A stretch of DNA of 64,000 nucleotides, from the NCBI RefSeq assembly GCF_018141545.1, contig NZ_CP064356.1, positions 558,001-622,000 on the forward strand. The letters run 5' to 3'. The stretch comes from Miltoncostaea oceani (GTDB taxonomy: Bacteria; Actinomycetota; Thermoleophilia; Miltoncostaeales; Miltoncostaeaceae). The translations under genes and the position numbers were made by a program. Positions 36,827 to 51,212 of the stretch are shown here, piece after piece. The first letter of the stretch is position 1. Each line of letters starts with the position of its first letter. The notes beneath the pieces are model-generated. The model had not been told where the DNA came from. It saw only the letters and a list, made by a program, of their open reading frames with translations, and made no database searches.

Positions 36827-37966
36827 TCAGGGAAGGGCGCTCATGTGCACGAGGGTCCCCGGATCCACCGTGCCTTCTCCCGGTTCGATCCATGCGAGGG
36901 CTCGTGCCCCCGCCAGGGACCCGAGCTGCGCCGAGCCCTGACGCGCGAGGGGACGCAGGCCCTCCGGGCCCTCGGAGCACCGCACGAAGGTCGTCGCCCG
37001 CGGGTGGCGCCGGCAGGGCGCGGCGAGCGCGGCGCGGCGCGACCAGTCCCCGCGCGCGCCGAGCAGGGGGCGGCCCAGCAGATGGAAGGCGACCACGGCG
37101 GCCGCGGGGTTACCGGGAAGGGCCAGGATCACGGTCGAACGGCAGACCGCCAGGCCGACGGGATGGCCGGGACGCATCGCGACGCCCCGGAAGGCCCATC
37201 GCGCCCCCAGGCGCATCAGCGCCCCGGCGACGTGGTCGTGATCGCCCACCGACACGCCGCCCACCGTCACGATGAGATCCGGCTCGCCCTCGAGCAGCGC
37301 CGAGAGGGCCGACGCGGTCACCCGCCGGTCGTCGCCGGCATGGACGTGCTCCCCGGCCACCGCGCCGGCGGCGCGGGCCTGGGCACCGAGGGCGGCCAGG
37401 TTCGACTCGGTCCGGTGGGCGTGCGGGACGCGTGCGCCGGGGGGCACGAGCTCGTCTCCGGTGGTCAGGACCGCGACCACGGGACGAACCCGGCAGAGCG
37501 CCCCGGCATGACCGGCGGCCGCCAGCACCGACAGCTCGTGTGCGGCGACCACCGTCCCGGCCTCGAGCAGTCTCTCGCCCGCGGCGAGGTCGTCTCCGCG
37601 CGGCCGGACATGGTCGCCGGCCGCCCCCCCGGCGTCGATGAGCAGGCGCCCGCCGATCTCGCGGCCGTCCTCCCGTCGCACCACGGCGTCGGCGCCGTCG
37701 GGGATCAGCGCTCCCGTCGAGATCCGGCACGCCTCGCCGGGGTGCAGCGACCGGGCGGGGCCGTGGCCCGCGGCGCTCTCGTCCGTGATCCGCCGCACCG
37801 ACCGCCCCCCGCCGGAGCGCACGGCCCAGCCGTCCATGGCCGAGGATGGCGCGGGCGGCAGGTCGTGCCGCGCCACGACGGCGGCGGCGAGGCACCGGCC
37901 GTGGACGTGTTCCAGCGGCACCCACTCCGTCGTACGGGCGGTCTCCAGCGAGCGCGCGCGGAGCAC
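36827..37966 (-). CDS. moeA: Molybdopterin molybdenumtransferase MoeA
   Basis: About 379 aa. Start uncertain: GTG 37966 is the first likely codon after the narK stop, without a strong ribosome-binding site. Motifs: VPLEHVHGRCLAAAVVARHDLPPAPSSAMDGWAVR, ISTGALIPDGADAVVRRED, VVAVLTTGDELVPPG, ESNLAALGAQARAAGAV, TVGGVSVGDHDHVAGALMRLG, ILALPGNPAAAVVAFHLL. MoeA inserts molybdate into adenylylated molybdopterin. Its place after narK fits supply of Mo cofactor to NarG, and perhaps to the sulfite-oxidase-like fusion at 55159. Confidence 0.92.
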   Translation of the reverse strand: MLRARSLETARTTEWVPLEHVHGRCLAAAVVARHDLPPAPSSAMDGWAVRSGGGRSVRRITDESAAGHGPARSLHPGEACRISTGALIPDGADAVVRREDGREIGGRLLIDAGGAAGDHVRPRGDDLAAGERLLEAGTVVAAHELSVLAAAGHAGALCRVRPVVAVLTTGDELVPPGARVPHAHRTESNLAALGAQARAAGAVAGEHVHAGDDRRVTASALSALLEGEPDLIVTVGGVSVGDHDHVAGALMRLGARWAFRGVAMRPGHPVGLAVCRSTVILALPGNPAAAVVAFHLLGRPLLGARGDWSRRAALAAPCRRHPRATTFVRCSEGPEGLRPLARQGSAQLGSLAGARALAWIEPGEGTVDPGTLVHMSALP

Positions 37967-38040: not shown

Positions 38041-39252
38041 CTAGCGTGACGCCACCACGGACGCGTGGGTGGCCGCTCCGGCCCCCCGGCGTCCCATGAG
38101 GTACAGCACGACCAGGGCGACGACGGCGGTCAGGGCGAGGGCGGCGAAACCGAGCGCGTAGCCGCCGGTGGCCGACTTCACGAAGGCCATCAGGAGGGGT
38201 GGGAAGAAGCCCCCCAGCCCGCCGGCCGCCCCGACGACGCCGGTCACGGCGCCCACCGAGTCCGGGAAGTCGTGGGCGACGAGCTTGAAGACCGCACCGG
38301 TCCCGAGCCCGAAGGCCGCCGCCATGCTGAGGGCGAGAAACGTCAGCGGGACCATCTGGTCGTGGAGTGGCGCCAGCAGGGCGGCGAGCACCCCGGTGGC
38401 CGCGAACGAGACACGGAGGATGGTGTCGGCGCCGACGCGGTCGGCCAGCCACCCGCCGATCGGCCGGGCGATCACGGCCACGAGGGCGAAGCCCGCGGCC
38501 CGCGCCGCCGCGTCGGGCTTGTCGAGCTCGTGGACGCCGGTCAGCAGCTTCGGGAGGTAGGCGAACATCGCCACGAAGCCGCCGAACGCGAGGAAGTAGT
38601 AGAAGGTCGGCGCCCATGCGGCGGGCTGTTCGCGGAAGATCCGCAGGGAGGAGAACATCCCGCCTGTGGACGTCGGCCGTGCGACCGGGGCGTCACGGGC
38701 GAGCAGCCAGAAGACGACCGCCATCGCGCCCACCAGGACCATGGCGAACACGAATGGCGCGGAGACGCCCCAGCGGTCGGCGATGCGGGGGGCGGTGAGG
38801 CCGCCGAGCACGGTCCCGCCCATGCCGATGCCGTAGAGGCCGAGGGCCATCCCCTGACGCTCACGCGGGTACCAGCGGCTCACGAAGGGGACGCCGACGG
38901 CGAAGGAGGCTCCGGCGAAGCCGAGGAAGAACCCGAAGAGGACGACGGCCGAGAAGGAGTCGTGCCACACGGCGAGCGCCGCCAGGGGCAGCGATGTGAA
39001 GGCCAGGAGCGCGGTGAACACGCGGCGCCCGCCGTACCGGTCGGTGAGCAGGCCGAGCGGTATGCGCATGAGCGATCCCATGAGGACCGGCACCGAGATC
39101 AGGACCGCGAGCTGGACCTCCGAGAGGCCGAGCAGGTCCTGCAGGTCGGGTCCCAGGGGGCCCATCATGCTCCACGCGTAGAACGAGACCGTGAACGCGA
39201 GGGTCGCCAGGACGAGCGCCCTGGTGTTCCCCCGGGGCTCGAAGGTGGACAC
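38041..39252 (-). CDS. narK: Nitrate/nitrite transporter (NarK-like MFS)
   Basis: 403 aa, GTG 39252 with AAGGGGGG 5 nt upstream. Twelve membrane helices of the NNP family: LAFTVSFYAWSMMGPLGPDLQDLLGL, VLMGSLMRIPLGLLTDRYGGRRVF, FFLGFAGASFAVGVPFVSRWYP, GMALGLYGIGMGGTVLGGLTAPRIADRWG and the second nitrate signature GAVTGVVGAAGGLGGFFPPLL. The conserved Arg residues of helices 2 and 8 (SLMRIP; VIARPIGGWLADR) are present. Imports nitrate and/or exports nitrite for the NarGHI enzyme encoded just upstream. Confidence 0.92.
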   Translation of the reverse strand: MSTFEPRGNTRALVLATLAFTVSFYAWSMMGPLGPDLQDLLGLSEVQLAVLISVPVLMGSLMRIPLGLLTDRYGGRRVFTALLAFTSLPLAALAVWHDSFSAVVLFGFFLGFAGASFAVGVPFVSRWYPRERQGMALGLYGIGMGGTVLGGLTAPRIADRWGVSAPFVFAMVLVGAMAVVFWLLARDAPVARPTSTGGMFSSLRIFREQPAAWAPTFYYFLAFGGFVAMFAYLPKLLTGVHELDKPDAAARAAGFALVAVIARPIGGWLADRVGADTILRVSFAATGVLAALLAPLHDQMVPLTFLALSMAAAFGLGTGAVFKLVAHDFPDSVGAVTGVVGAAGGLGGFFPPLLMAFVKSATGGYALGFAALALTAVVALVVLYLMGRRGAGAATHASVVASR

Positions 39253-39266
39253 GACAACCCCCCTTT

Positions 39267-39992
39267 TCAGGCTGTGGTGCGCGGCCGTGCGCGCTCGTCG
39301 GCGAGCGCGGTGGGCCGGCGGGAGCGGTACAGGATGTTGCTGCGGCCGAGATAGCCGAACGGGATGCTCCACGCGTGCACGAGCCGGCTGAAGGGCCAGA
39401 GCGCGTAGAGGAGCCAGGCCGCGACGACGTGGATGCGGTAGACGAGGGGCGCGCCGGCGATGAGCGACGTGTCGGGGTCGAGGGTGAACAGCCCGCGGAA
39501 CCACGGGGCCACCGTCTCGCGATAGTCGTAGCCGCCGAGCAGCAGGTTCTCGCCCACCGTCGCGTACATGCCCGTGACGAGCATCACGCCGAGCAGCAGG
39601 TAGGTGGCGCGGTCGGTGGGTGTCGTGGTGGCGCGCACCCGCGCGTCGGTCTCGCGGCGCGCGAGCAGCAGCACGAAGCCCGCCAGCATCGTCAGGCCCG
39701 CGAGGGTGCCGGCGGTCACCGAGACCACGTGGTACATGTGCTCGGACACCCCGGCCCGCTCGGTCAGGGACGCCGGCACCAGCACCCCGAGCACGTGACC
39801 GCCGAGGACCGCGAACAGCCCGAGGTGGAAGAGCAGGATCGCCGGCCGCAGCCGACGGCTCTCCAGGATCTGGGTCGAGCGCGTGGTCCAGCCGAACTGG
39901 TCGTGCCGGTAGCGCCACACGTGCCCGACGACGAAGACCGTCATCGCCACGTAGGGGAGGACGATCCACAGGAGGAGCTCGACCGGCCTCAT
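39267..39992 (-). CDS. narI: Respiratory nitrate reductase gamma subunit (cytochrome b)
   Basis: 241 aa, ATG 39992 overlapping the narJ stop (ATGA). Five membrane helices with heme-b histidines in FHLGLFAVLGGHVLG and VYRIHVVAAWLLYALWPFSRLVHAW; also VFVVGHVWRYRHDQFGW. It anchors NarGH to the membrane and takes electrons from quinol. The C-terminal segment after the last helix (RSNILYRSRRPTALADERAR) matches NarI tails. Confidence 0.95.
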   Translation of the reverse strand: MRPVELLLWIVLPYVAMTVFVVGHVWRYRHDQFGWTTRSTQILESRRLRPAILLFHLGLFAVLGGHVLGVLVPASLTERAGVSEHMYHVVSVTAGTLAGLTMLAGFVLLLARRETDARVRATTTPTDRATYLLLGVMLVTGMYATVGENLLLGGYDYRETVAPWFRGLFTLDPDTSLIAGAPLVYRIHVVAAWLLYALWPFSRLVHAWSIPFGYLGRSNILYRSRRPTALADERARPRTTA

Positions 39993-40633
39993 CGCGTGCC
40001 TCCGGCGGGTCCGCAGGGCGCGGTCGCGCGCACGGGGTCGGGCATGACCTCGGGCGGCGCGAAGGGTTCGAGTCCGACGGTCTCGCCGGGCGGGCCCTCG
40101 CGGGCGAGACGACGCAACTCGGCGACCTCGTCCTCCGCGAGGGGCGGGAGCAGCCGGCAGAGGGCGCCGATGAGGCCGGCCCAGGGGCTCTCGGCGCGCT
40201 CGAGCGACAGGCGGATGAGCTCGATGACCGGGCGGAAGCCCGCGAGCAGCTCACCGCCGCCGCCCGGTTCGAGCGCGGCGAACTCCACCACCACCGGCAG
40301 GTGGTCCGGGAGCTCGGGGCCCTCCAGCTCGAGCCCGGCTGCGTCATAGCGACGGCGCAGGTCGAGCAGGGCGAGGCCGCGCTGGCGGCGGTCGCCGTGG
40401 GTGTAGTAGGTGAGGTCGAGCGCGGTGCGACGCGAGAAGTCGAAGGTCTCGACGTAGGAGCGGCGCAGGTCGTCCGCGGGCTCGGCAGCCCACCAGGCGA
40501 GGAAGTCGCGGAGCGCCGCGACGCCCGGGGAGTCCGGCAGGGCGCGGGCCGCGGCGGCGACCTCGCCACGGCTCGCGACCAGCGTGGGATCCGGGTGCTG
40601 CAGTGCGATCGCGATGAGGGCGAGGGGCTCCAT
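39989..40633 (-). CDS. narJ: Nitrate reductase assembly chaperone NarJ
   Basis: 214 aa; ATG 40633 shares a base with the narH stop (TGATG). All-helical NarJ/TorD fold: LALIAIALQHPDPTLVASRG, YVETFDFSRRTALDLTYYTHGDRRQRGLALLDLRRRY, ELPDHLPVVVEFAALEPGG. It is a private chaperone that helps put Mo cofactor and the FS0 cluster into NarG before membrane attachment. Confidence 0.93.
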   Translation of the reverse strand: MEPLALIAIALQHPDPTLVASRGEVAAAARALPDSPGVAALRDFLAWWAAEPADDLRRSYVETFDFSRRTALDLTYYTHGDRRQRGLALLDLRRRYDAAGLELEGPELPDHLPVVVEFAALEPGGGGELLAGFRPVIELIRLSLERAESPWAGLIGALCRLLPPLAEDEVAELRRLAREGPPGETVGLEPFAPPEVMPDPVRATAPCGPAGGTR

Positions 40634-42267
40634 CACGCCCCCGGGGCCGGGACGGGCGCGTCGCCGCCGCATCCGCATTCGCGGCTCCCGCACCCGCTCG
40701 ACGGCGACGACGCGGCGCGGGCGACGGGGTCGGATGCCGGCGAGGGCGCCGTGACGTGGAAGGCCTCGCCCGCCGCCTCCTCCCGCGTGGCCCGTCCGTT
40801 GGCGCCGCAGCCACCGGGCCCGCCCGCGAAGTCCAGGCCACAGGCGCCCTGCTGGGCGGACAGGGCCCCGGCGAGCTCGGCATGGGCGCTCGGGATGACG
40901 AAGCGCTCGTCGTACTTGGCCAGGGCCAGCAGCCGGTACATGTCCTCCATGTCCCCGACCTCCATGCCCACCGAGGCGGCCACCGACGGATCGGCCTCCC
41001 CGCCGAGGGACAGCTCGCGCATGTACCGCCGCATCGCCGCGAGCTGCTTGAGGACCCGCCGGACGACCTCGTCGTCGCCGGCGGCGAGCAGGTTGGAGAG
41101 GTACCGCACCGGGATCCGCAGCCGGTCGATCGCCGGGAAGACGTCGTCCGGGTCGGCGGTGCTCCCCTCCCCTTCGATCATCCCCATCACCGGCGACAGC
41201 GGCGGCACGTACCAGACCATCGGCAGGGTCCGGTACTCCGGGTGGAGGGGCAGCGCCACCCGGTGGCGCATCGCCAGGGCGTACACCGGCGAGCGGCGGG
41301 CGGCGTCGATCCAGTCGGCCGGGATGCCGTCGGCCTCGGCGCGGCGGCGGACCTCGGGGTCCTCGGGGTCGAGGAAGACGTCGAGCTGCGCGTCGAGCAG
41401 GTCCCTTGGGTCCTCCACGGAGGCCGCGTGCTCCACGCGGTCGGCGTCGTACAGGACGACGCCGATGTAGCGGATCCGGCCCACGCAGGTCTCGGCGCAG
41501 ATCGTCGGCATCCCCGCCTCGATCCGCGGATAGCAGAGGGTGCACTTCTCGGCTTTACCGGTCTGCCAGTTGAAGTAGACCTTCTTGTAGGGGCAGTTGG
41601 AGACGCACATGCGCCACCCCCGGCACGCCTCCTGGTCGACGAGGACGATGCCGTCCTCCTCGCGCTTGTACATGGCGCCCGACGGGCACGAGGCGACGCA
41701 CGAGGGGTTGAGGCAGTGCTCGCAGATGCGTGGCAGGTACATCATGAAGACCCGCTCGTACTCCATCCGCACGGCGTCCTCTATGCCCCGCAGGTTGGGG
41801 TCCGCGGGGGCGTGCTCGGGGGCCCCGGCGAGGTCGTCCTCCCAGTTCGGCCCCCACTCGATCTCCATCGGCTCGCCGGTCAGGGCCGACACGGGCCGCG
41901 CGACCGGCTGGTGCTCGGAGGTCGGCGCCCGCGTCAGCGCGTCGTAGTCGAAGGTGAACGGCTCGTAGTAGTCGTCCAGCGACGGCAGGTCGGGGTTGAA
42001 GAAGATGTTGAACAGGCGCCGCGAGCGCGAGCCGCTCCTCAGCTCTAGGCGCCCTTTTCTCGAGAGCTCCCATCCGCCGTGCCAGGAGTCCTGGTCCTCC
42101 CAGCGTTTCGGGTATCCGACCCCGGGCTTCGTCTCGACGTCGTTGAACCACATGTACTCGGCGCCGTCGCGGTTCGTCCACACGTTCTTGCAGGTGACGC
42201 TGCACGTGTGGCACCCGATGCACTTGTCGAGGTTCATCACCATGCCGACCTGGGCCCGCACGCGCAT
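40633..42267 (-). CDS. narH: Nitrate reductase beta subunit (iron-sulfur)
   Basis: 544 aa, ATG 42267 sharing a base with the narG stop. Cluster ligands: CIGCHTCSVTC (Cys16,19,22,26), then CEHCLNPSCVASCP, CRGWRMCVSNCPYKKVYFNW (the Trp-containing site of the 3Fe-4S cluster) and CTLCYPRIEAGMPTICAETC. It passes electrons from NarI to NarG. Odd point: the last 65 residues form a Gly/Cys-rich tail with about seven extra cysteines (GGPGGCGANGR, then SGCGSRECGCGG), which is not usual for NarH and may bind metal or be a recent extension. Confidence 0.95.
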   Translation of the reverse strand: MRVRAQVGMVMNLDKCIGCHTCSVTCKNVWTNRDGAEYMWFNDVETKPGVGYPKRWEDQDSWHGGWELSRKGRLELRSGSRSRRLFNIFFNPDLPSLDDYYEPFTFDYDALTRAPTSEHQPVARPVSALTGEPMEIEWGPNWEDDLAGAPEHAPADPNLRGIEDAVRMEYERVFMMYLPRICEHCLNPSCVASCPSGAMYKREEDGIVLVDQEACRGWRMCVSNCPYKKVYFNWQTGKAEKCTLCYPRIEAGMPTICAETCVGRIRYIGVVLYDADRVEHAASVEDPRDLLDAQLDVFLDPEDPEVRRRAEADGIPADWIDAARRSPVYALAMRHRVALPLHPEYRTLPMVWYVPPLSPVMGMIEGEGSTADPDDVFPAIDRLRIPVRYLSNLLAAGDDEVVRRVLKQLAAMRRYMRELSLGGEADPSVAASVGMEVGDMEDMYRLLALAKYDERFVIPSAHAELAGALSAQQGACGLDFAGGPGGCGANGRATREEAAGEAFHVTAPSPASDPVARAASSPSSGCGSRECGCGGDAPVPAPGA

Positions 42268-45200
42268 CAGTACGCCACCTCCGACTGGCGACGGCGGATG
42301 ACCGTCAGCTCGTCGCGCTGTGATCCGGTGGGCCCGTAGTAGTTGAAGCCCCACGAGAGCTGCGCGTAGCCGCCGATCATGTGCGTCGGCTTGATCGTGA
42401 TCTTGGTGAGCGAGTTGTGCGTGCCGCCGCGGGTGCCCGACACCTCGGAAAGCGGCACGTTGATGTGACGGTCCTGGGCGTGGTACATGAGCGACGTCCC
42501 CTCGGGGATGCGGTGCGAGACGACCGCCCGGCAGGCCACCACCCCGTTGCGGTTGTAGGCCTCGATCCAGTCGTTGTCGCGGACGCCGATGCGGTCGGCG
42601 TCGAGCGGGCTCAGCCAGATGACCGGGCCGCCCCGGAACAGCGTCAGCATCTGCAGGTTGTCCTGATAGGTCGAATGGATCGACCACTTGGAGTGCGGCG
42701 TGAGGTAGCGCAGCGTGACCTCCGCGACCCCGTCGTCGATGCCCTGCTGGCCGAGGTGGCGCGCCAGGTTGAGCGGGGGGCGGTACGCCGGCAACCCCTC
42801 GCCGTACTCCCGCATCCAGGGGTGGTCGAGGTAGAAGTGCTGGCGTCCGGTGAGGGTGCGGAAGGGCACCTCGCGCTCGATGTTGATCGTGAAGGGGGAG
42901 TAGCGGCGCTCGCGGCTCTCCATCCCCGACCACTCTGCCGATGCGATCACCTTGCGGGGCTGGATCTGGGTGTCCTCAAAGGTGATCCGGGTCTCGGCGT
43001 GCTCGGTCGCGAGATCGGCGAGCCCGTTGCCGGTGCGCTTCTCCAGCGCGCGGAAGCTCTCGACCGCGAGCCGGCCGTTGGTGGTGCCCGACAGCGCCAG
43101 GATCGTCTCGCAGACCTGCTCGGCGCGCTCCATCCGGGGTCGTCCGTTGGCCGGTCCGCCGCGCACGCGGCCGTGACGGACAGCCAGTTCCTCCACCTCG
43201 CGGTCGGGCGTCCACGAGACACCCTTCCAGGCCGTGCCGGCGCTCTCGACGAGTGGGCCCAGCGCCGTCATGCGGGCGTGCAGGGCCGGGTAGTCGCGCA
43301 CCACCGGTATCAAGCGGGGCATCGTCTGCCCGGGGATCGGCTCGCACTCCCCGAGCTTCCAGTCGCGCACCGGCGCGCCGATCTGGGCGAGCTCGTCGGG
43401 GCTGTCGTGGAGCAGCGGCGCGGCGACCAGGTCGGTGCGCACCCCGAGGTGCCGTTCGGCCAGGCGCGAGAACGACTCGGCGAGGCGGACGAAGATGTCC
43501 CAGTCGGTGCGGGTCTCCCACGGCGGCCCGATGGCGGGGGAGAAGGCGTGGACGAACGGGTGCAGGTCCGTGCTCGAGATGTCGTGCTTCTCGTACCAGG
43601 TGGCGGCCGGAAGGACGACGTCCGAGTGCAGGCACGAGCCGTTCATCCGGAAGTCGAGGGTGACGAGCAGGTCGAGCTTCGCCTCGGCCGCCTCGTTGTG
43701 CCACACGACCTCCGCCGGCCGCAGCTCCGGCGGCGACTCCTCACCCCGGATCGCCGAGGTCGTGACGCCGAGCAGGTGCTTGAGGAAGTGCTCGTGCCCC
43801 TTACTGGACGATCCGAAGAGGTTGGATCGCCACAGGGTCAGGACCCGCGGGAAGTTCTCGGGCGCGCCCGGGTCCTCGGCGGCGAACCGGAGCGCGCCCG
43901 CCTTCAGCTCGCGCACGACGTAGTCCGCCGGCGTGATGCCCTCCGCCTCGGCGGCCGGCGTGATCTCGAGCGGGTTGCGGTCGAAGCTGGGGTACGCCGG
44001 GAGCCAGCCCATCCGCGCGGCCTTGGCGTAGAGGTCGGCGAAGTGGGCGCCGCGCATGGCGCCATCGCCGAGGGGCGAAGCGAGCTCGTCGGCCGCGAAG
44101 GCCTCGTAGCGGTACTGCTCGGTGGCCAGGTACCAGAAGGGCGTGGCCGCCTGGTGGCGCGGGGGCCGGTTCCAGTCGAGCGCGAATGCCACCTGCGAGA
44201 AGCCGGTGATCGGCCGCACCTTCTCCTGCCCGACGTAGTGCGCCCAGCCGCCCCCGTTGACCCCCTGGCAGCCGCAGAGCACGACCATGCTGAGCATCGC
44301 GCGGTAGATCAGGTCCGAGTGGTACCAGTGGTTCGTCCCGGCGCCCATCACGATCATGGAGCGGCCGTTCGTCCGCTCCGCGTTCCGGGCGAACTCGCGG
44401 GCGATGCGCGTCACGAGCCCGGCGTCCACGCCGGTGATCTCCTCCTGCCATGCGGGTGTGTACGGCTCCGGGTCGTCCAGGCCGTCCGGCCAGTCGCCCG
44501 GGAGTCCCTCACGGGCGACGCCGAGCTGGGCGGCCAGCAGGTCGAAGACCGTGGTCACGAGGTGGCCGCCGACGCGGCGCACCGGCACGCCCCGGCGCAT
44601 GACCGTGCCCCCCTCGGTGTCGCCCACGTCGAACCGCGGCAGGTCGACCGCGACCGACTCGCCCGTGTCGAGGAGGGTGATCGCCGGGACGACCCCCTGG
44701 AGGTCGAGGTTCCAGCGCCCGAGTCCCTCGTCGCCCCAGCGGAATCCGATCGATCCGTTCGGGACGGCAGGGCGGGCGGCGGTCGTGTCCCAGACGACCG
44801 TCTTCGCCTCGGCGTTCTCGCTCGTCTCCCCCAGGTCGGCGGCGGTGAGGAACGCGCCCGCGACGTGCGCCCCGTCGCGCTCGGTGAGCCGCACCAGGAA
44901 CGGCAGGTCCGTGAAGCGACGGGCGTAGTCGGCGAAGTACGGCGTCTCGCGCTCCACGTAGAACTCGCGGAGGATCACGTGGGTCATCGCCAGGGCCAGG
45001 GCGCCGTCGGTGCCCGGCTGGGCGGCCAGCCAGTGGTCGGCGAACTTGGTGTGGTCCGAGTAGTCGGGCGAGACCACGACGGTCTTCTGGCCCTTGTAGC
45101 GCGCCTCGGTCATGAAGTGCGCGTCCGGCGTGCGCGTCATGGGGATGTTGGAGCCCCACATCATCAGGTAGGTGGCGTTCCACCAGTCGGCCGACTCCGG

Positions 45201-45911
45201 CACGTCGGTCTGGTCGCCCCAGACCTGCGGCGAGGCCGGGGGCAGGTCGGCGTACCAGTCGTAGAAGCTCGTCAGAACCCCTCCCATCAGGGAGAAGAAC
45301 CGCGTGCCCGCCGAGTACGAGACCATCGACATCGCCGGGATCGGGGAGAACCCCACGATCCGGTCGGGTCCCCACCGCAGGATCGTGTGCACGTGTGCGG
45401 CGGCCACCATGTCGGCGACCTCGTCCCAGGAGGCGCGCGCCAGCCCCCCCTTGCCCCGCTGCGAGGTGTAGGCGAGGCGTGCCTCCGGGTCGTCCACGAT
45501 CGCGGCCCACGCATCGACCGGGTCACCCGTCGTCGCGAGCGCAGCCCGGTAGCGCTCGAGGAGGGCGCCGCGGACGTAGGGGTGCCGGATCCGCAGCGGC
45601 GAGTAGACGTACCACGAGAACGACGCGCCCCGCGGGCAGCCACGCGGCTCGTAGTCGGGGACGTCCGCCCCGTTCTCGGGGTAGTCGGTCTGCTGGGTCT
45701 CCCAGGTGACGATCCCCTGCTTGACGTGCACCTGCCAGGAGCACGAACCGGTGCAGTTGACGCCGTGGGTCGAACGCACGATGCGGTCGTGCTGCCAGCG
45801 CTCACGGTACGACGACTCCCAGTCGCGCGATCGGCCGCCGTCGAGGGCGCTCCAGGCACCGTCGGGCCTCGATGTCAGTCGGCGGAAGAAGCGCGGGCTC
45901 GGCAGGGTCAT
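42267..45911 (-). CDS. narG: Respiratory nitrate reductase alpha subunit (molybdoenzyme)
   Basis: 1214 aa from ATG 45911 (GGAGG 10 nt upstream), the usual NarG length; open frame further upstream is non-coding. FS0 cluster ligands His49, Cys53, Cys57 and Cys92 (STHGVNCTGSCSWQVHVKQG, EPRGCPRGASFSW). Bis-MGD region: WGSNIPMTRTPDAHFMTEARYKG, VVVSPDYSDHTKFADHWLA, MGAGTNHWYHSDLIYRAML, LCGCQGVNGGGWAHYVGQEK, GSCLHSDVVLPAATWYEKHD. C-terminus TLFRGGPVIWLSPLDADRIG, HINVPLSEVSGTRGG, GFNYYGPTGSQRDE. Reduces nitrate to nitrite in anaerobic respiration; first gene of narGHJI-narK-moeA. Confidence 0.97.
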   Translation of the reverse strand: MTLPSPRFFRRLTSRPDGAWSALDGGRSRDWESSYRERWQHDRIVRSTHGVNCTGSCSWQVHVKQGIVTWETQQTDYPENGADVPDYEPRGCPRGASFSWYVYSPLRIRHPYVRGALLERYRAALATTGDPVDAWAAIVDDPEARLAYTSQRGKGGLARASWDEVADMVAAAHVHTILRWGPDRIVGFSPIPAMSMVSYSAGTRFFSLMGGVLTSFYDWYADLPPASPQVWGDQTDVPESADWWNATYLMMWGSNIPMTRTPDAHFMTEARYKGQKTVVVSPDYSDHTKFADHWLAAQPGTDGALALAMTHVILREFYVERETPYFADYARRFTDLPFLVRLTERDGAHVAGAFLTAADLGETSENAEAKTVVWDTTAARPAVPNGSIGFRWGDEGLGRWNLDLQGVVPAITLLDTGESVAVDLPRFDVGDTEGGTVMRRGVPVRRVGGHLVTTVFDLLAAQLGVAREGLPGDWPDGLDDPEPYTPAWQEEITGVDAGLVTRIAREFARNAERTNGRSMIVMGAGTNHWYHSDLIYRAMLSMVVLCGCQGVNGGGWAHYVGQEKVRPITGFSQVAFALDWNRPPRHQAATPFWYLATEQYRYEAFAADELASPLGDGAMRGAHFADLYAKAARMGWLPAYPSFDRNPLEITPAAEAEGITPADYVVRELKAGALRFAAEDPGAPENFPRVLTLWRSNLFGSSSKGHEHFLKHLLGVTTSAIRGEESPPELRPAEVVWHNEAAEAKLDLLVTLDFRMNGSCLHSDVVLPAATWYEKHDISSTDLHPFVHAFSPAIGPPWETRTDWDIFVRLAESFSRLAERHLGVRTDLVAAPLLHDSPDELAQIGAPVRDWKLGECEPIPGQTMPRLIPVVRDYPALHARMTALGPLVESAGTAWKGVSWTPDREVEELAVRHGRVRGGPANGRPRMERAEQVCETILALSGTTNGRLAVESFRALEKRTGNGLADLATEHAETRITFEDTQIQPRKVIASAEWSGMESRERRYSPFTINIEREVPFRTLTGRQHFYLDHPWMREYGEGLPAYRPPLNLARHLGQQGIDDGVAEVTLRYLTPHSKWSIHSTYQDNLQMLTLFRGGPVIWLSPLDADRIGVRDNDWIEAYNRNGVVACRAVVSHRIPEGTSLMYHAQDRHINVPLSEVSGTRGGTHNSLTKITIKPTHMIGGYAQLSWGFNYYGPTGSQRDELTVIRRRQSEVAY

Positions 45912-46237
45912 CGCGGCCGTACCTCCGGGTGTCTGCGGGCTGCCGATCGTCCGCTGGCCCCGGAGGGTCGCCATCGGGGCGCCCCCCGAGCGGAGCGGCG
46001 CGAACCACCCGGCCCGGCGTGCGGCGAATCCGCAGGGGGCGCGGGCGCCGGCGGGGACGGGGGGCGACGCGGCGGGGGCGACGGACACGACACGTAACCG
46101 TTGTATAGTCGAGGGTGATCTCTAATAAATGCCTGCAACGTCCCGACATCGGCGGCCGACCCACCGGGATCGCCCCCCTGGAGACGACGGGCGCCCGCGG
46201 GGAGATGCTCGCCCGGGACCGCGATGGAGGTGCATCG
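45912..46237. other. Divergent control region of the nitrate operon
   Basis: 326 bp between narG and the DUF6457 gene without a convincing coding sequence. The GC content drops sharply at 46095-46130, where -35/-10-like boxes can be drawn on both strands. I do not see a clear FNR, NarL or NsrR consensus site. Confidence 0.5.
46101..46128 (+). promoter_or_regulatory. Candidate divergent promoter for nar operon and accessory genes
   Basis: Plus strand: TTGTAT (46101-46106), 16 bp, TAATAA (46123-46128), 110 bp before the DUF6457 start. The same segment read on the minus strand gives TTTATT, 16 bp, TATACA pointing to narG. This AT-rich island is exceptional in the surrounding GC-rich DNA. Confidence 0.4.
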
Positions 46238-46456
46238 ATGACCGACCGCCAGTGGATCGACGCGTTCGCGGCGGCGCTGGGGGCCGAGCCGCCCACCGAT
46301 GCGGCCATCGAGGCGCTCCTGGCGCTGGCGGGCGAGGCCGCGCACGCGTCACAGAGGACCGCCGCGCCGGTCGCCTGCTGGCTGGCGGCGGTGGCGGGGC
46401 GCACCCCCGATGACGCCCTCGCCGTGGCCCGGACGATCGCGCTCCGGAACGGGTAG
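46238..46456 (+). CDS. DUF6457 small protein
   Basis: 72 aa, ATG 46238, GGAGG 7 nt upstream. Sequence MTDRQWIDAFAAALGAEPPT, EALLALAGEAAHASQRTAAP and CWLAAVAGRTPDDALAVART is the helical DUF6457 domain. In other actinobacteria this domain stands alone or fused to MobA next to molybdenum-cofactor genes, so a Mo-cofactor or nitrate-enzyme role fits. Mechanism unknown. Confidence 0.85.
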   Translation: MTDRQWIDAFAAALGAEPPTDAAIEALLALAGEAAHASQRTAAPVACWLAAVAGRTPDDALAVARTIALRNG

Positions 46457-46460
46457 GCCC

Positions 46461-47180
46461 ATGGGCGCCGCCCACCCACCCGGCGCCGTGGACGCCCTGA
46501 CGCCCGCACGGCACGCGCGCGCGGCGAGCCTGGCCCGGCCCGCCGCCCGCCGGGTCGCCGCGGCACTCGAGGCCGCCCGACGACCGGTGACGGCCCAGGA
46601 GCTGGCGGACGCGCTCGGCCGGCACCACACGGGGGTCCGCGTCCAGCTGCGCGCACTGGAGCGCGCCGGCGTCGTGGAGGGCGTCAGCGACCCACCCCGG
46701 AGGCGCGGTCGTCCCACCCGTCGCTACACCCTCACCTCCGATCCCGGAGAACGTGAGGCTGCGGGGCACCGCGAGCTCGTGCGCCTGTTGATGGGGCTCG
46801 TCCGCCAGACGGGCCTCGGCCCCGGGGACGTGGAGCGCTTCGGGGAGCGCCAGGGCTGGGCGGTCCCGGCGCCCGGCGGCGGCGCCGACGAGCTGCGGTG
46901 GGCCTTCGAGCGGTTGGGCTTCGCCCCTCGCTGGGCGGCGGTCGCCCCGCTCTCCGAGCTCGTGCTCGACCAGTGCCCGTTCGCCGACGGCGTCGAGGCC
47001 CCGGGGGGAGAGGTCATCTGCCTCATGCACCGGGGCCTGGCGCGCGGCATCGCGCGGCGCGCCTGCCCCGGCCTCGCGATCACCGAGCTCGTCATCGAGG
47101 ATCCGCGGCGGGCCGGCTGCCGCCTCCGCCTGGGCCCCGCCGACGGGCCGGCCATCCACCACCCGAGGGAGTCCCCATGA
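46461..47180 (+). CDS. ArsR-type winged-helix regulator with cysteine-rich C-terminus
   Basis: 239 aa, ATG 46461, 4 bp after the DUF6457 gene. Winged helix: AALEAARRPVTAQELADALGRHHTGVRVQLRALERAGVVEG, then the wing RRRGRPTRRYTLT. The C-terminal part has four cysteines plus a His: Cys172 (DQCPFADG), Cys187/His190 (GEVICLMHRGL), Cys202 (RRACPGL), Cys220 (AGCRL). The CPF...C-x2-H-x-GL spacing resembles iron-sulfur or metal-sensing regulators such as the SufR-like group. Next to narG it is a good candidate oxygen, NO or metal sensor for the nitrate genes. Confidence 0.8.
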   Translation: MGAAHPPGAVDALTPARHARAASLARPAARRVAAALEAARRPVTAQELADALGRHHTGVRVQLRALERAGVVEGVSDPPRRRGRPTRRYTLTSDPGEREAAGHRELVRLLMGLVRQTGLGPGDVERFGERQGWAVPAPGGGADELRWAFERLGFAPRWAAVAPLSELVLDQCPFADGVEAPGGEVICLMHRGLARGIARRACPGLAITELVIEDPRRAGCRLRLGPADGPAIHHPRESP

Positions 47181-47524
47181 CGTCGAGCGCCTTCCATGTC
47201 GAGCTCGACCCTGCGGGTGCCATCGAGGTCCCCGCCGCGGGCACGCTGAGCCGCACCCTCTATGCGGACGACGATCTCCGGGTGGTCGTCTTCGGGTTCT
47301 CGGAGGGCGAGGAACTGACGGAGCACACGTCCTCCCGCACGGCGATCGTCGAGGTGCTGCGGGGGGAGTTCGAGCTGACCCTCGCAGGCGAGACCGTCAC
47401 GGCCCGCGCGGGCGCCTGGGTGAAGATGGATGCGGGTCTCCGCCACGCTGTGCGGGCGCGCACGGCGGCGGTCATGATGCTGACGTTGGTGGGGCCGGTC
47501 GTGGGCGGTGCGACGGCCGGATAG
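47177..47524 (+). CDS. Small cupin protein
   Basis: 115 aa; ATG 47177 overlaps the regulator stop (ATGA). One cupin barrel: DDLRVVVFGFSEGEELTEHTSSRTAIVEVLRGEFELTLAGETVTARAGAWVKMDAGLRHAVRARTA. The metal-binding set is reduced (EHTSS...E, then H). Translational coupling with the cysteine-rich regulator suggests a common signal. Function unknown. Confidence 0.85.
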   Translation: MTSSAFHVELDPAGAIEVPAAGTLSRTLYADDDLRVVVFGFSEGEELTEHTSSRTAIVEVLRGEFELTLAGETVTARAGAWVKMDAGLRHAVRARTAAVMMLTLVGPVVGGATAG

Positions 47525-47541
47525 GGCAGTCCGTCCCGGGC

Positions 47542-48024
47542 TCAGGGCACCAGCGAGACCGCCAGCCAGAGGGTGGCGAGCGCTGCGACGAGCAGGAACC
47601 CGTCGAAGGCCGCGCCCAGCAGGCGCCAGCGCCGGGCCGTCGCCGGGTCGTCGGCCTCGTCGGCGCGCCGGGCGCGCGGGCCCTGCCAGAGCGCGTGCAG
47701 CAGGGTCACGACGCCCATCGCCGCGAGCAACACCATCTTCGCCACGATGCGGCGGCCGTAGTCGCTCTCGGCGAGATCGCCCACGGCGACGCCGCGATGG
47801 TCGATGAGCGCGAATCCCGTCGTGACGAGCAGGGCGAAGGCGACGGCCCCGATCACGCCGAATCGGCGCGCCGCGGAGGTGACGACCCGTCGGCCGGCGG
47901 CGCGGTCGCCCGCGCGCCGGGCGGCGGGTACCGCCACGGCGCCGAGCACGATCATCCCGCCCACCCAGGTGGCGGCCCCGAGGACGTGGAGGAAGCGCAC
48001 GAGCGTCCAGACGTCGTCCCTCAC
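47542..48024 (-). CDS. CopD-like four-helix membrane protein
   Basis: 160 aa, GTG 48024. Starts TLVRFLHVLGAATWVGGMIVLG, the H-x3-A-x2-W-x-G-G pattern of CopD/DUF2269-type proteins, with FALIDHRGVAVGDL, AKMVLLAAMGVVTLLHALW and GFLLVAALATLWLAVSLV. His residues in helices 1 and 3 could bind heme or copper. 4 bp after the DUF2249 gene, same operon. Possibly linked to nitrate/NO metabolism by position. Confidence 0.75.
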   Translation of the reverse strand: MRDDVWTLVRFLHVLGAATWVGGMIVLGAVAVPAARRAGDRAAGRRVVTSAARRFGVIGAVAFALLVTTGFALIDHRGVAVGDLAESDYGRRIVAKMVLLAAMGVVTLLHALWQGPRARRADEADDPATARRWRLLGAAFDGFLLVAALATLWLAVSLVP

Positions 48025-48028
48025 GCGG

Positions 48029-48265
48029 TCACCGCTTGCCGATGCGCACGCGCCAGACCTCCGGCCCCTCCTCCAGGTAGTCCCAGGTGTAGCTGCCGGG
48101 GAGCCGCGTCTCGAACTGGCGACGCAGCGGTTGCGGGTCGTGGTCGTTCACCAGCTCCATCGCCTGCCCTGGGGACAGCGCCTCGAAGGTGGTGAAGATG
48201 GTGGGGTGACGGTCGCGCGGGACCATCTCCCGCACGTCGATGACGGTGGTGGGCGATGCCGCCAT
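48029..48265 (-). CDS. DUF2249 protein
   Basis: 78 aa, start 48265. VIDVREMVPRDRHPTIFTTFEALSPGQAMELVNDHDPQPLRRQFE then SYTWDYLEEGPEVWRVRIGK is a complete DUF2249 (SirA-like fold). These domains are regularly found beside denitrification, NO-detoxification and hemerythrin genes, which agrees with the nearby nar operon. Molecular role not known. Confidence 0.9.
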   Translation of the reverse strand: MAASPTTVIDVREMVPRDRHPTIFTTFEALSPGQAMELVNDHDPQPLRRQFETRLPGSYTWDYLEEGPEVWRVRIGKR

Positions 48266-48320
48266 GGCTGCCTCCTGTGGATGGGTGGGTGGATGATGTG
48301 GCGTGCGCGGCCGCCGGCGC

Positions 48321-48614
48321 TCAGCGCGACGGCCCCGTCGGCCCCGGCCGCGCCATCGCGTCGCGGACCTGATCGTTCACGTCGCCGTCGTCCACGGCCA
48401 GCACCACGACGACCCAGACGAAGTTGATGCCGAGCGCGATCGCCAGGCCGCTGCCGATGCCGATCGCCACGCCGAATCCGAAGATGACGCTCGCCGCGAT
48501 GCTGAGGACGACGGCGAGCGGCCACGGCGCGATCAGCACCGTCCAGAAACGGCGGCCGCGCGCATGCGATCGCACGGCCTCGCGATCTGGTGGCGTCTGC
48601 CGGCTCGTCTCCAT
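48321..48614 (-). CDS. Small two-helix membrane protein
   Basis: 97 aa from ATG 48614 (GGGAG 6 nt upstream). Two hydrophobic helices (VLIAPWPLAVVLSIAASVIFGFGVAIG, GLAIALGINFVWVVVVLAV) flanked by charged ends (DDGDVNDQVRDAMARPG). No family recognised. First gene of a probable operon with DUF2249 and CopD-like genes. Confidence 0.65.
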   Translation of the reverse strand: METSRQTPPDREAVRSHARGRRFWTVLIAPWPLAVVLSIAASVIFGFGVAIGIGSGLAIALGINFVWVVVVLAVDDGDVNDQVRDAMARPGPTGPSR

Positions 48615-48663
48615 GGCCATCTCCCTCACTCGGATCCCGTGCAGGGACCGTAGGCCGTCGCCG

Positions 48664-48699
48664 ACGATTTTTCAAACTGATGAGCAGAAAAAAAACTGC
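48664..48699. promoter_or_regulatory. AT-rich island, probable promoter region
   Basis: GATTTTTCAAACTGATGAGC followed by GCAG-A8-CTGC (48684-48699) is the most AT-rich stretch in several kb. It lies about 50-85 bp upstream of the minus-strand start at 48614 and 130 bp beyond the end of the MarR gene, so it is likely the promoter or an UP element of the 48.6-kb operon. Confidence 0.35.
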
Positions 48700-48831
48700 G
48701 ATGGGGCAGGCGGCCCGGCACCGGGACGCACGGCCACGACGCGGGACGGGCCCGATGGCGATCGCCATCACTCGGCGCACCGCCCCCACACCGCCGCGAC
48801 CAGGGTCGGTCGCCGCGGGAATGGACGACCC

Positions 48832-49269
48832 TCAGGTGCCGGTGCGCTGAGAGCGATCCAGTTCGCCGACGAGCGCGATCAGCCTCCTGCGGTCTGCCAC
48901 CAGGCCGGCGACCGTTCCGGCCAGTCGGCGCTCGCCCTCACTCGAGAGGCGCAGGTAGGCGCTCCGCCCATCGTCCGCGGATCGCTCGCGTGTGAGGAGC
49001 CCCGCCTCCTCAGCCCGCGCAACGAGGTCCGTCACGGTGTTCTGAGCGAGCTGCATCCGTCCGGTGAGGTCGGTCACCGTTGCACGCTCCGAGCCGTCCG
49101 GCGCCCCCTTGATGAGCAGGAGCAGGAGCTGGCGCTGGGGCGTCAGCCCATGCGCCGCGGCGATCTCCTCGCTGCGCCGCAGGAACCGCCGGAGTCCCTC
49201 CCGCAGTGCGGCGGCCTCGCGGTACTCCTCCGCGCCCATCGCCTGGTCGGTCGTTCCATCGGGATTCAT
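48832..49269 (-). CDS. MarR family transcriptional regulator
   Basis: 145 aa, ATG 49269. Winged-helix core LTPQRQLLLLLIKGAPDGSERATVTDLTGRMQLAQNTVTDLVARAEEAGLLTRERSADDGRSAYLRLSSEGERRL contains the MarR wing (DxRxxYLxLSxxG). Divergent from the TPP-oxidase operon, whose promoter carries a 13-bp palindrome (ATCGT-N3-ACGAT) of MarR-site size that recurs at three other promoters of the region. I therefore suspect that it represses all four in the absence of a phenolic, oxidant or acid signal. That link is inference. Confidence 0.9.
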   Translation of the reverse strand: MNPDGTTDQAMGAEEYREAAALREGLRRFLRRSEEIAAAHGLTPQRQLLLLLIKGAPDGSERATVTDLTGRMQLAQNTVTDLVARAEEAGLLTRERSADDGRSAYLRLSSEGERRLAGTVAGLVADRRRLIALVGELDRSQRTGT

Positions 49270-49380
49270 TCGTTCGGGGCTCCGGCGGGCGGCGTCGATC
49301 CGTGAAGGCTAGCCCCACGCCGGACCCGTCACCGGTTCGTCGTGGGTTTACGCGCATGCCGCCCGGGGCATCGGCGATAA

Positions 49381-49402
49381 ACATCGTCTTACGATCTATC
49401 GT
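49381..49402 (+). promoter_or_regulatory. Operator-promoter, site 1 (TPP-oxidase operon)
   Basis: Sense strand ACATCGTCTTACGATCTATCGT: palindrome ATCGT-CTT-ACGAT at 49383-49395, directly followed by -10-like TATCGT (49397-49402), 13 nt before ATG 49416. The same layout is at 62315 and 62634 and, degenerate, at 60428. Confidence 0.7.
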
Positions 49403-49415
49403 CAGGAGCCCCGGT

Positions 49416-51212
49416 ATGGGCGAGACCGTCGCCGACTTCTTGCTGGATCGCCTTCGCGCGTGGGGAGTGGAGCGGATCTACGGCTACCCCGGCGACGGGA
49501 TCAACGGGATCCTCGGCGCCCTCAATCGCGCGGACGACGATCCCGAGCTGATCCAGGTGCGACATGAGGAGATGGCGGCATTCATGGCGTGCGCCCACGC
49601 CAAGTTCACCGGCGAGGTGGGCGTGTGCCTGGCGACCTCGGGCCCCGGTGCCGTCCACCTGCTCAACGGCCTCTACGACGCCAAGCTCGACCACCAGCCC
49701 GTGGTCGCCATCGTGGGCCAGCAGGCCCGCTCCGCGCTCGGCGGCAGCTACCAGCAGGAGATCGACCTCGACTCCCTGTTCAAGGACGTCGCCCACGAGT
49801 ACGTCCACGTCGCCACGGAGCCGGCCCAGGTCCGCCATCTGATCGACCGCGCGATGAGGATCGCACGGGCCGAGCGCACCGTCACATGCCTGATCATCCC
49901 GAACGACCTCCAGGACATGGACGCGGTGGCCGAACCGCCTCGCGCACACGGCACGGTCCATTCCGGGATCGGTCACTCGACGCCGCGCGTCATCCCGCGG
50001 GACGACGATCTGCGACGTGCGGCCGAGGTCCTCAACGCAGGCGAGAGGGTCGCGATGCTCGTCGGCGCCGGGGCGCTCGCGGCCCCGGAGGAGGTCACGC
50101 AGGTGGCCGACCTGCTCGGCGCGGGCGTCGCCAAGGCCCTTCTCGGCAAGGCCGCGCTGCCCGACGACCTCCCCTGGGTCACGGGCTCGATCGGGCTGCT
50201 CGGCACCCGCCCGAGCTGGGACCTCATGATGGGCTGCGACACCCTCCTGATGGTCGGCTCCAGCTTCCCCTACTCGGAGTTCCTGCCCCGCCCCGGCCAG
50301 GCACGAGGGGTCCAGATCGACATCGACGGGCGGATGCTCGGCATCCGCTACCCGATGGAGGTGAACCTCGTGGGCGACAGCGCCGAGGCCCTCCGTGCGC
50401 TCCTCCCGCTGCTGCGCCGCAAGGACGACCGCTCCTGGAGGGAGTCCGTCGAGGCGAACGTCGCCGACTGGTGGGACCTCATCGAGACGCGGGCCATGGA
50501 CGACGCCGCCCCGATCAACCCCCAGCGGGTGTTCCACGAGCTCTCCCCCCGGCTGCCCGAGAACGCGATCGTCTCCTGCGATTCGGGCTCGGCGGCCAAC
50601 TGGTTCGCGCGCGATCTGCGGCTACGCCCCGGGATGCTGGCGTCCCTGTCGGGCACCCTCGCGACGATGGGTCCCGGGGTCCCCTACGCGATCGCGGCGA
50701 AGTTCGCGCATCCGCACCGGGTGGCGGTCGCCCTCGTCGGCGACGGCGCCTTCCAGATGAACGGGATGAACGAGCTGATCACGATCGCCAAGTACTGGCG
50801 GCGCTGGGCCGATCCGCGGCTCGTGATCATGGTGCTCCACAACAACGACCTCAACCAGGTGACCTGGGAGCAGCGGGCGATGGAGGGCGATCCGAAGTTC
50901 GCCGCCTCCCAGGATCTGCCCGACTTCCCCTACGCCGCCTACGCCGACCTCGTCGGCCTGCACGGCATCCGCGTGGACCGGCCCGAGGACGTGGCGGGCG
51001 CCTGGGAGGAGGCCTTCGCCGCCGACCGGCCCGTGGTCCTCGAGGCGATCACCGACCCCGACGTCCCTCCGCTGCCCCCGCACGTGACCCTTGAGCAGAT
51101 GAAGGCCATGACGCTCGCCATGGCCAAGGGCGACCCCGACCGGCTGGGCGCCGTGACGCAGATGGTCAAGGGCAAGATCGAGGAGTTCATGCCTCATCGG
51201 GGCGGGCGATGA
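49416..51212 (+). CDS. TPP-dependent oxidase/decarboxylase (pyruvate oxidase-like)
   Basis: 598 aa, ATG 49416, AGGAG 7 nt upstream. The PoxB/acetolactate synthase fold: ETVADFLLDRLRAWGVERIYGYPGDGINGIL, catalytic Glu in IQVRHEEMAAFMACAHAKFTG, LATSGPGAVHLLNGLYDAKLD, and the TPP-Mg motif LVGDGAFQMNGMNELITIAKYW ending in LHNNDLNQVTWEQ (GDG-x-NN). Similar enzymes decarboxylate pyruvate to acetate with FAD and quinone; substrate not certain here. First gene of a seven-gene operon; its stop overlaps the next ATG (ATGA). Confidence 0.9.
   Translation: MGETVADFLLDRLRAWGVERIYGYPGDGINGILGALNRADDDPELIQVRHEEMAAFMACAHAKFTGEVGVCLATSGPGAVHLLNGLYDAKLDHQPVVAIVGQQARSALGGSYQQEIDLDSLFKDVAHEYVHVATEPAQVRHLIDRAMRIARAERTVTCLIIPNDLQDMDAVAEPPRAHGTVHSGIGHSTPRVIPRDDDLRRAAEVLNAGERVAMLVGAGALAAPEEVTQVADLLGAGVAKALLGKAALPDDLPWVTGSIGLLGTRPSWDLMMGCDTLLMVGSSFPYSEFLPRPGQARGVQIDIDGRMLGIRYPMEVNLVGDSAEALRALLPLLRRKDDRSWRESVEANVADWWDLIETRAMDDAAPINPQRVFHELSPRLPENAIVSCDSGSAANWFARDLRLRPGMLASLSGTLATMGPGVPYAIAAKFAHPHRVAVALVGDGAFQMNGMNELITIAKYWRRWADPRLVIMVLHNNDLNQVTWEQRAMEGDPKFAASQDLPDFPYAAYADLVGLHGIRVDRPEDVAGAWEEAFAADRPVVLEAITDPDVPPLPPHVTLEQMKAMTLAMAKGDPDRLGAVTQMVKGKIEEFMPHRGGR

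Follow-up and report, generated by a model that had tools for sequence, protein, structure and literature searches.

A SufR/ArnR-type regulator beside narG in Miltoncostaea oceani, a candidate iron-sulfur sensor of nitric oxide

Which regulator controls nitrate reduction in Miltoncostaea oceani, and which signal does it read? The question is raised by a 64,000-bp stretch of its genome (contig NZ_CP064356.1, positions 558,001 to 622,000 of the forward strand; hereafter the window, numbered from its first base), where a winged-helix protein of 239 amino acids with several Cys (46461–47180, + strand) is encoded next to the nitrate reductase operon narGHJI. The host genome amounts to 4.54 Mb in three contigs, and we took its class as Thermoleophilia. 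The regulator gene is the second of a tight three-gene unit, in the order DUF6457, regulator and cupin, which is transcribed divergently from narGHJI-narK, with a gap of 4 bp between the DUF6457 and regulator genes and an overlap of 4 bp between the regulator and cupin genes. An earlier note, made from the letters of this DNA alone, had called the protein an ArsR-type regulator with four Cys and one His that shares a divergent AT-rich promoter region with narG, and had suggested that it may be an iron-sulfur (Fe-S) or nitric oxide (NO) sensor in place of Fnr and NarL. We consider it probable that the protein is an ArnR-like, SufR-related Fe-S repressor of nar that is released by NO. The suggestion of an Fe-S, NO-type sensor of nar is likely to be right, as indicated by the invariant ligand residues of the protein, its profile match to SufR-type proteins, the match to regulators of corynebacterial type (one of them nar-linked, the other numbered nearly as ArnR in its Cys) and the linkage to nar and nirK.

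Family and ligand residues of the regulator

The regulator begins with a winged helix of the HTH_20 family (PF12840, 37.7 bits against a cut-off of 27; residues 24–75), behind which lies a C-terminal sensory domain, and its relatives align over the full length. The label ArsR-type was right as to the winged helix and loose otherwise: the protein scored below the cut-offs of both ArsR/SmtB models (PF01022, 14.4 bits versus 22; NF033788, 19.3 versus 55), and while it resembles ArsR/SmtB proteins in the winged-helix fold of its N-terminal half (Foldseek matches to SmtB and CzrA, expectation value (E) ∼6e-3), it differs from them in the extra C-terminal sensory domain. Membership of the FNR (Crp) family was also rejected, since HTH_Crp_2 reached 15.5 of 27 bits and no cNMP domain matched at E 0.1, as was that of the NsrR (Rrf2) family, for which there was no Rrf2 match at E 0.1. 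When the profile of the regulator (32 relatives) was compared with a profile of three SufR-type proteins of the Asp type (one of them, L115, encoded near the host sufB with one gene between, the two others chosen by sequence), hhalign gave a probability of 99.85 (E 6e-31), and the Cys columns of the two profiles fell into register. Judged by its sequence, the regulator is of the SufR/ArnR kind and not a metal-binding ArsR/SmtB protein.

Four residues of the C-terminal domain, C172, C187, H190 and C220, were invariant in all 13 sequences of one alignment (A1) and in all 32 of another (A2), the window protein being included in each count. By contrast, C202 is private to the window protein (0 of the 12 other A1 sequences and 0 of the 31 other A2 sequences); one relative, L057, has a Cys one residue beside this position. 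Because C202 is absent from all other aligned sequences, a four-Cys cluster was ruled out and the putative cluster site was taken as three Cys plus His. Hence the four Cys counted earlier (172, 187, 202 and 220) are present, and three of them are conserved together with H190, while the count of one His was too low, as the protein has eight, of which H190 is the one close to the Cys. Among 77 distinct homologues from loci fetched up to that point (131 matches less duplicates, those with fewer than 150 profile positions being set aside), the motif was C-x2-H in 70 and C-x2-D in 3, had Asn in 1 and Leu in 2, and was missing in 1.

An AlphaFold2 model from nine sequences (mean pLDDT 80.7) has the winged helix followed by a further alpha/beta part, in which C172 stands right behind a strand, C187 and H190 fall in the initial turns of a helix, and C220 opens a strand, and these four residues would be close together in space. 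A search of PDB sequences with the regulator returned weak matches only, the three aligned ones covering the winged-helix part, and Foldseek returned a single match at E ≤0.001 (Phr, 2p4w, 7.6e-4), which fits the winged helix, with nothing reliable for the sensory domain.

We also surveyed the Crp-type and Rrf2 proteins of the host. The host has four Crp-type proteins that score above the Pfam cut-off. In three of them an N-terminal Cys cluster like that of FNR is absent: L206 and L207 carry Cys at 45, 46 and 92 only and L208 has none at all. The fourth, L209, looks by eye like a metal-dependent regulator and has one Cys. The one strong Rrf2 protein of the host has no Cys in the 127 amino acids that were called, out of a possible 150, unlike NsrR, which carries Cys. 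A canonical Fnr- or NsrR-type regulator was therefore not found in this survey, which covered Crp-type and Rrf2 proteins and not those of NarL type, and it is plausible that the window regulator stands in for Fnr and NarL in this host.

Linkage to nar and nirK and the shared promoter region

In 149 genomes of the class, the regulator had 56 matches at E 1e-5, in 40 genomes. Their positions were compared with those of 33 kept narG matches (at least 236.8 bits, among the matches listed; some of them fragments) and of 33 out of 66 nirK matches (E 1.2e-38 or better; the 33 weaker, partial ones were dropped). Fourteen of the 56 had a kept narG or nirK match no more than 2 kb away, where 0.1 would be expected, and 13 of these were divergent from it, 3 from narG and 10 from nirK; within 10 kb the count was 17, with 0.51 expected. 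Two further loci are consistent with this pattern and were not counted, one in which a contig end cuts nirK (G109:C341) and one in which narHJI-narK stand beside the regulator and narG is missing (G137:C48). For ArsR (PF01022), which served as control in the same genomes, 0 of the 150 matches listed lay within 2 kb of these genes, and the count rose to 1 at 10 kb; this recount omitted one nirK place (G130:C7), and none of the ArsR matches listed came from that genome. When only genomes with narG or nirK were considered, 14 of 38 regulator matches were linked compared with 0 of 35 ArsR matches among those listed (Fisher p 3e-5). As to the co-occurrence with nar genes that the earlier note had proposed to examine, the regulator was present in 26 of 44 genomes that carry narG or nirK and in 14 of the 105 without (p 3e-8).

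The nirK counted here is a copper nitrite reductase homologue whose matches all fall short of the TIGR02376 threshold (296.3 bits, exceeded in 0 of 149 genomes; four proteins reach 169–191 bits), and solved nitrite reductases match one of these proteins at 8.6e-67. The host has two strong copies of the regulator, one at narG and one at nirK. Both arrangements are also found in G007, a genome of the same genus in which the narG-divergent regulator has no adjoining DUF6457 and cupin genes, and in G113 (C52) a regulator is divergent from narG too. Separately, a divergent pair of similar LuxR-type proteins is encoded near nar in two genomes (L071:4324–5420 and L072:7962–8933); the longer protein of L071 has PAS and GerE domains and several Cys, and the pair is possibly a second nar sensor.

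Across the phylum, 98 of 346 genomes had regulator matches at E 1e-15. The neighbours in the fetched loci include genes for DUF59 (of Fe-S assembly type), DUF2249, hemerythrin, truncated-globin-like (by eye), ferredoxin and membrane proteins, besides nirK and nar. The link of the homologues to nitrate genes holds in part: many of them lie away from nar and next to nirK, DUF59/DUF2249 clusters, ferredoxin or truncated-globin-like genes, and some next to none of these. Two loci of the wider family were noted in addition. Beside one homologue (L137:9076–12743) is encoded a protein of 841 amino acids in which a long hydrophobic part is fused to one resembling copper nitrite reductase; it adjoins a membrane protein of 381 amino acids, the latter also seen with DUF59/DUF2249 clusters. 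In the other locus (L116:7011–13659), two homologues ∼5.3 kb apart on opposite strands stand around genes for a DUF59 protein, a cupin, DUF2249 and a membrane protein.

The regulator shares the divergent region with narG by way of its operon, in which DUF6457 comes first and the regulator second. The 326 bp between narG and DUF6457 are 75% G+C as a whole, and the earlier description of the region as AT-rich applies to ∼46097–46146 only, a block of 52% A+T compared with 25% for the window, which is a candidate shared promoter/operator. Four loci of the same genus share this block ahead of the regulator unit, which faces narG in two of them and nirK in the other two: the best 50-column stretch has 25 invariant columns versus 38 of the other 220. 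A sigma-70-like promoter for the regulator unit (CGGACA-16-TATAGT, 46082–46109, + strand), predicted by a consensus match only at 9 of 12 positions (1 found versus a shuffle mean of 0.1), ends inside the block. The host nirK region was also aligned with the DNA preceding the unit of two-helix, DUF2249 and CopD-like genes described below, and a possible common operator was dropped as unconvincing. Upstream of that unit there is a short AT-rich stretch (48664–48700) in a window otherwise of 75% G+C, with no clear site in common with the nirK regions.

ArnR and SufR as models, and rival readings

ArnR of Corynebacterium glutamicum is described as a [4Fe-4S] repressor of narKGHJI and hmp that is released by NO; its cluster is very stable to O2 and sensitive to NO, and nitrosylation takes the protein off the DNA (PMC12343034). 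Single variants of its Cys 179, 193 and 223, which have a conserved His nearby, lose both the cluster and DNA binding, and the fourth ligand is left as an open point in that report; arnR lies directly downstream of narKGHJI, and C. glutamicum is said to be without direct FNR and NsrR homologues (PMC12343034). The window regulator resembles ArnR in the N-terminal winged helix, in the three Cys and the neighbouring His that are conserved in the C-terminal domain, in its place adjoining a nar operon and in its actinobacterial origin. It differs in the spacing of its Cys, C-x14-C-x32-C compared with C-x13-C-x29-C in ArnR, as counted from the published residue numbers, in being divergent from narG and in an operon with DUF6457 and cupin genes, in belonging to a family that also pairs with nirK, in having a cluster and an NO response that are predicted only, and in standing in a clade separate from the likely corynebacterial counterparts. 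The latter, L181 and L182, come from genomes of 2.7 and 3.0 Mb, have C-x2-H in both cases and match the A2 profile at 4.1e-38 and 1.3e-34; the Cys of L181 fall at 179, 193 and 224 from one possible start, whereas those of ArnR fall at 179, 193 and 223, and L182 is encoded ∼2.8 kb downstream of narGHJI. We regard the window regulator as a relative of ArnR, rather than a demonstrated orthologue, that most likely works like ArnR.

SufR, the suf repressor of Synechocystis and of Mycobacterium tuberculosis (Rv1460), shares the winged helix, three cluster Cys and an often divergent placement, and the M. tuberculosis protein requires its three Cys (PMC6034842); damage to its cluster by NO or reactive oxygen species is described as abolishing repression (PMC9045647). 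Unlike SufR, the window regulator lies beside nar and not suf, and it carries C-x2-H, whose His is Asp or Glu in 19 of the 21 relatives linked to sufB, a sample that is uneven, as 15 of the 19 were chosen for a SufR-like profile match and 18 of the 19 come from one family of genomes. The host sufB (C1:1098904–1100244) is ∼494 kb from the regulator and has its own SufR-like homologue nearby (L115:7867–8625), with Asp where the nar and nirK regulators carry His. The A2 profile matched 151 of 151 genomes in the family of genome G217, which may be Mycobacteriaceae-like; the 15 SufR-type matches fetched from this family all adjoin sufB and are all C-x2-E, and three further sufB-linked proteins (L183, L184 and L187) also have Glu. 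In contrast, His was found in all 22 nar- or nirK-linked proteins of the tree set, linkage being defined as within 6 kb, plus L182. A strict rule of Asp or Glu in sufB-linked proteins is broken by two with His, L123 (sufB ∼3.8 kb off) and L037 (a 49-residue sufB fragment at the locus end). The Asp/Glu proteins fall in more than one clade of the tree, and the residue appears to track the target operon well but not perfectly.

The layout of the genes, the family, the invariant residues, the statistical linkage and the conserved promoter block are observed. Drawing on ArnR and SufR, we infer a dimer, a cluster and its type, an NO signal, repression and a binding site for the window regulator. It would be a dimeric winged-helix repressor whose cluster, most likely [4Fe-4S], is held by C172, C187, C220 and probably H190. 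With the cluster bound, it would sit on the shared AT-rich promoter at ∼46.1 kb and hold down both narGHJI-narK and its own DUF6457-regulator-cupin unit. Reduction of nitrate and nitrite under low O2 would let NO build up and react with the cluster, the NO-hit regulator would come off the DNA, and nar would be expressed. The paralogue in the host would act alike at nirK.

Several observations weigh against this model. The regulator may activate rather than repress. In the tree, the window protein falls among proteins from its own family of genomes (support 0.99), apart from L181 and L182 (1.00), the deep branches being weak. Many family members lie beside unrelated genes, some beside none of the neighbours named above, and a regulator match at E 1e-5 is lacking in 18 of the 44 genomes that carry narG or nirK; the shared ancestry of the genomes also makes the p-values overstate their independence. 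In two same-genus genomes, G073 and G109 (92% and 86% complete), regulator and cupin genes face nirK and there is no narG among the matches listed. The host nirK (L053:11281–12377; C1 ∼3,448,280–3,449,376) is split over two frames by a frameshift or a sequencing error, its homologue in G007 being a single frame. One homologue directly upstream of narG (L140:4032–4829), which is not part of the tree set, is without the Cys/His ligands; a second one, ∼3.6 kb from it, keeps all of them. As to the binding site, the conserved block was chosen as the best stretch of four closely related loci and may mark a promoter instead of an operator, and no exact inverted repeat (dyad) common to 16 intergenic regions stood above shuffles.

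Could the same protein answer to another signal? An O2- or redox-responsive Fe-S regulator with a SufR- or FNR-like input would sense oxygen or cluster supply instead of NO and have nar as one target among others. SufR binding does depend on the presence and redox state of its cluster, loss of which derepresses suf (PMC6034842, PMC9045647), whereas the ArnR cluster is reported to be very O2-stable and NO-sensitive (PMC12343034). DUF59 genes of Fe-S assembly type are the divergent neighbours of many family members and two His-type homologues, L037 and L123, lie near sufB, but the recognised neighbours are nar, nirK, DUF2249, hemerythrin and truncated-globin-like genes, and the window regulator has His where those 19 of the 21 sufB-linked relatives have Asp or Glu. 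We hold a response to oxygen or cluster supply to be unlikely.

Three Cys and a His are also the composition of a zinc site. In a zinc- or thiol-based sensor these residues would hold structural zinc or form disulfides, and the signal would be either a metal or an attack of reactive nitrogen species on the thiols. The ArnR report likens the sensory domain of ArnR to zinc-bound TRAPPC3 (PMC12343034); against this, ArnR and SufR, the two relatives that have been studied, carry Fe-S clusters and depend on the equivalent Cys (PMC12343034, PMC6034842), and we give such a sensor only a small chance. It would be more surprising still if the regulator controlled only itself and the DUF6457-cupin unit, its position beside nar being incidental. 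The regulator shares its operon with two further genes, and many family members are away from nar, but the divergent arrangement is seen again at narG in G007 and G113 and at nirK in ten matches, when 0.1 of the 56 would be expected within 2 kb.

A wider proposal can also be made, which we offer as tentative and on the whole doubtful: that C-x2-H ArnR-like regulators are general NO switches of denitrification in Actinomycetota without FNR/NsrR control, that nar and nirK each have their own paralogue in Thermoleophilia, and that His versus Asp/Glu is the fourth ligand that parts NO sensing from cluster-supply sensing. If the window regulator is an NO-released repressor of the ArnR kind, a type of regulator studied mainly in one Corynebacterium protein would have a wider part in the control of nar and nirK, and the missing fourth ligand of ArnR would have a simple candidate in the conserved His, for which most sufB-linked relatives have Asp or Glu. 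The kind of regulator is itself already known; new here are the recurrent pairing with nirK, the presence of two copies in a single genome and the contrast of His with Asp/Glu. In the open literature searched, with most subscription papers outside the scope, we found no account of the control of nitrate or nitrite reduction in Thermoleophilia and no paper on nirK with a divergently transcribed ArsR family regulator.

Neighbouring genes

The genes that the earlier note had named around the nar operon (DUF6457, the regulator, cupin, CopD-like, DUF2249 and a two-helix protein) are all present, as judged from family model scores and open reading frame (ORF) calls, and its family assignments for DUF6457, cupin, CopD-like and DUF2249 agree with Pfam scores over the cut-offs. 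Genes were called with a home-made program trained on seven window genes; its starts are approximate, and it performed poorly in, for example, L065, L067, L123 and L147. On the minus strand, narG occupies 42267–45911 (start approximate; TIGR01580, 1696.5 bits against a cut-off of 1084) and is divergent from the regulator unit. It is followed by narH (40633–42267), narJ (39989–40633), narI (39267–39992), a narK-type nitrate/nitrite transporter gene (38041–39252; TIGR00886, 217 bits, under the cut-off of 311.7) and a moeA-type molybdenum cofactor gene (36827–37966), all on the same strand.

In the regulator unit, on the plus strand, the first gene encodes the DUF6457 protein (46238–46456; PF20058, 37.6 bits against a cut-off of 27) and the third the cupin (47177–47524; PF07883, 35.3 bits, cut-off 27.2). 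A DUF6457 homologue is also found in G113 (L071), between moeA and a regulator homologue near nar, and a cupin is part of the regulator unit in the same-genus genomes G073 (68%) and G109 (67%).

A second unit on the opposite strand converges on the regulator unit, reading from 48620 to 47542. It encodes the two-helix protein (48321–48620 or 48629; no family over its cut-off, the helices being read from the sequence by eye), the DUF2249 protein (48029–48265; PF10006, 107.3 bits, cut-off 29.5) and the CopD-like membrane protein (47542–48024; PF05425, 47.4 bits, cut-off 32.1). DUF2249 genes recur close to regulator homologues, and a DUF2249 protein near nar is also the likeness to the nar regulation of Thermus by DnrS/DnrT and DrpA/DrpB (PMC6282519). 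A difference is that DrpA/DrpB are proposed as nitrate sensors (PMC6282519). Adjoining the accessory set, at 48832–51212, a gene for a MarR-type regulator is divergent from that of a thiamine-diphosphate enzyme, with no evident link to nar.

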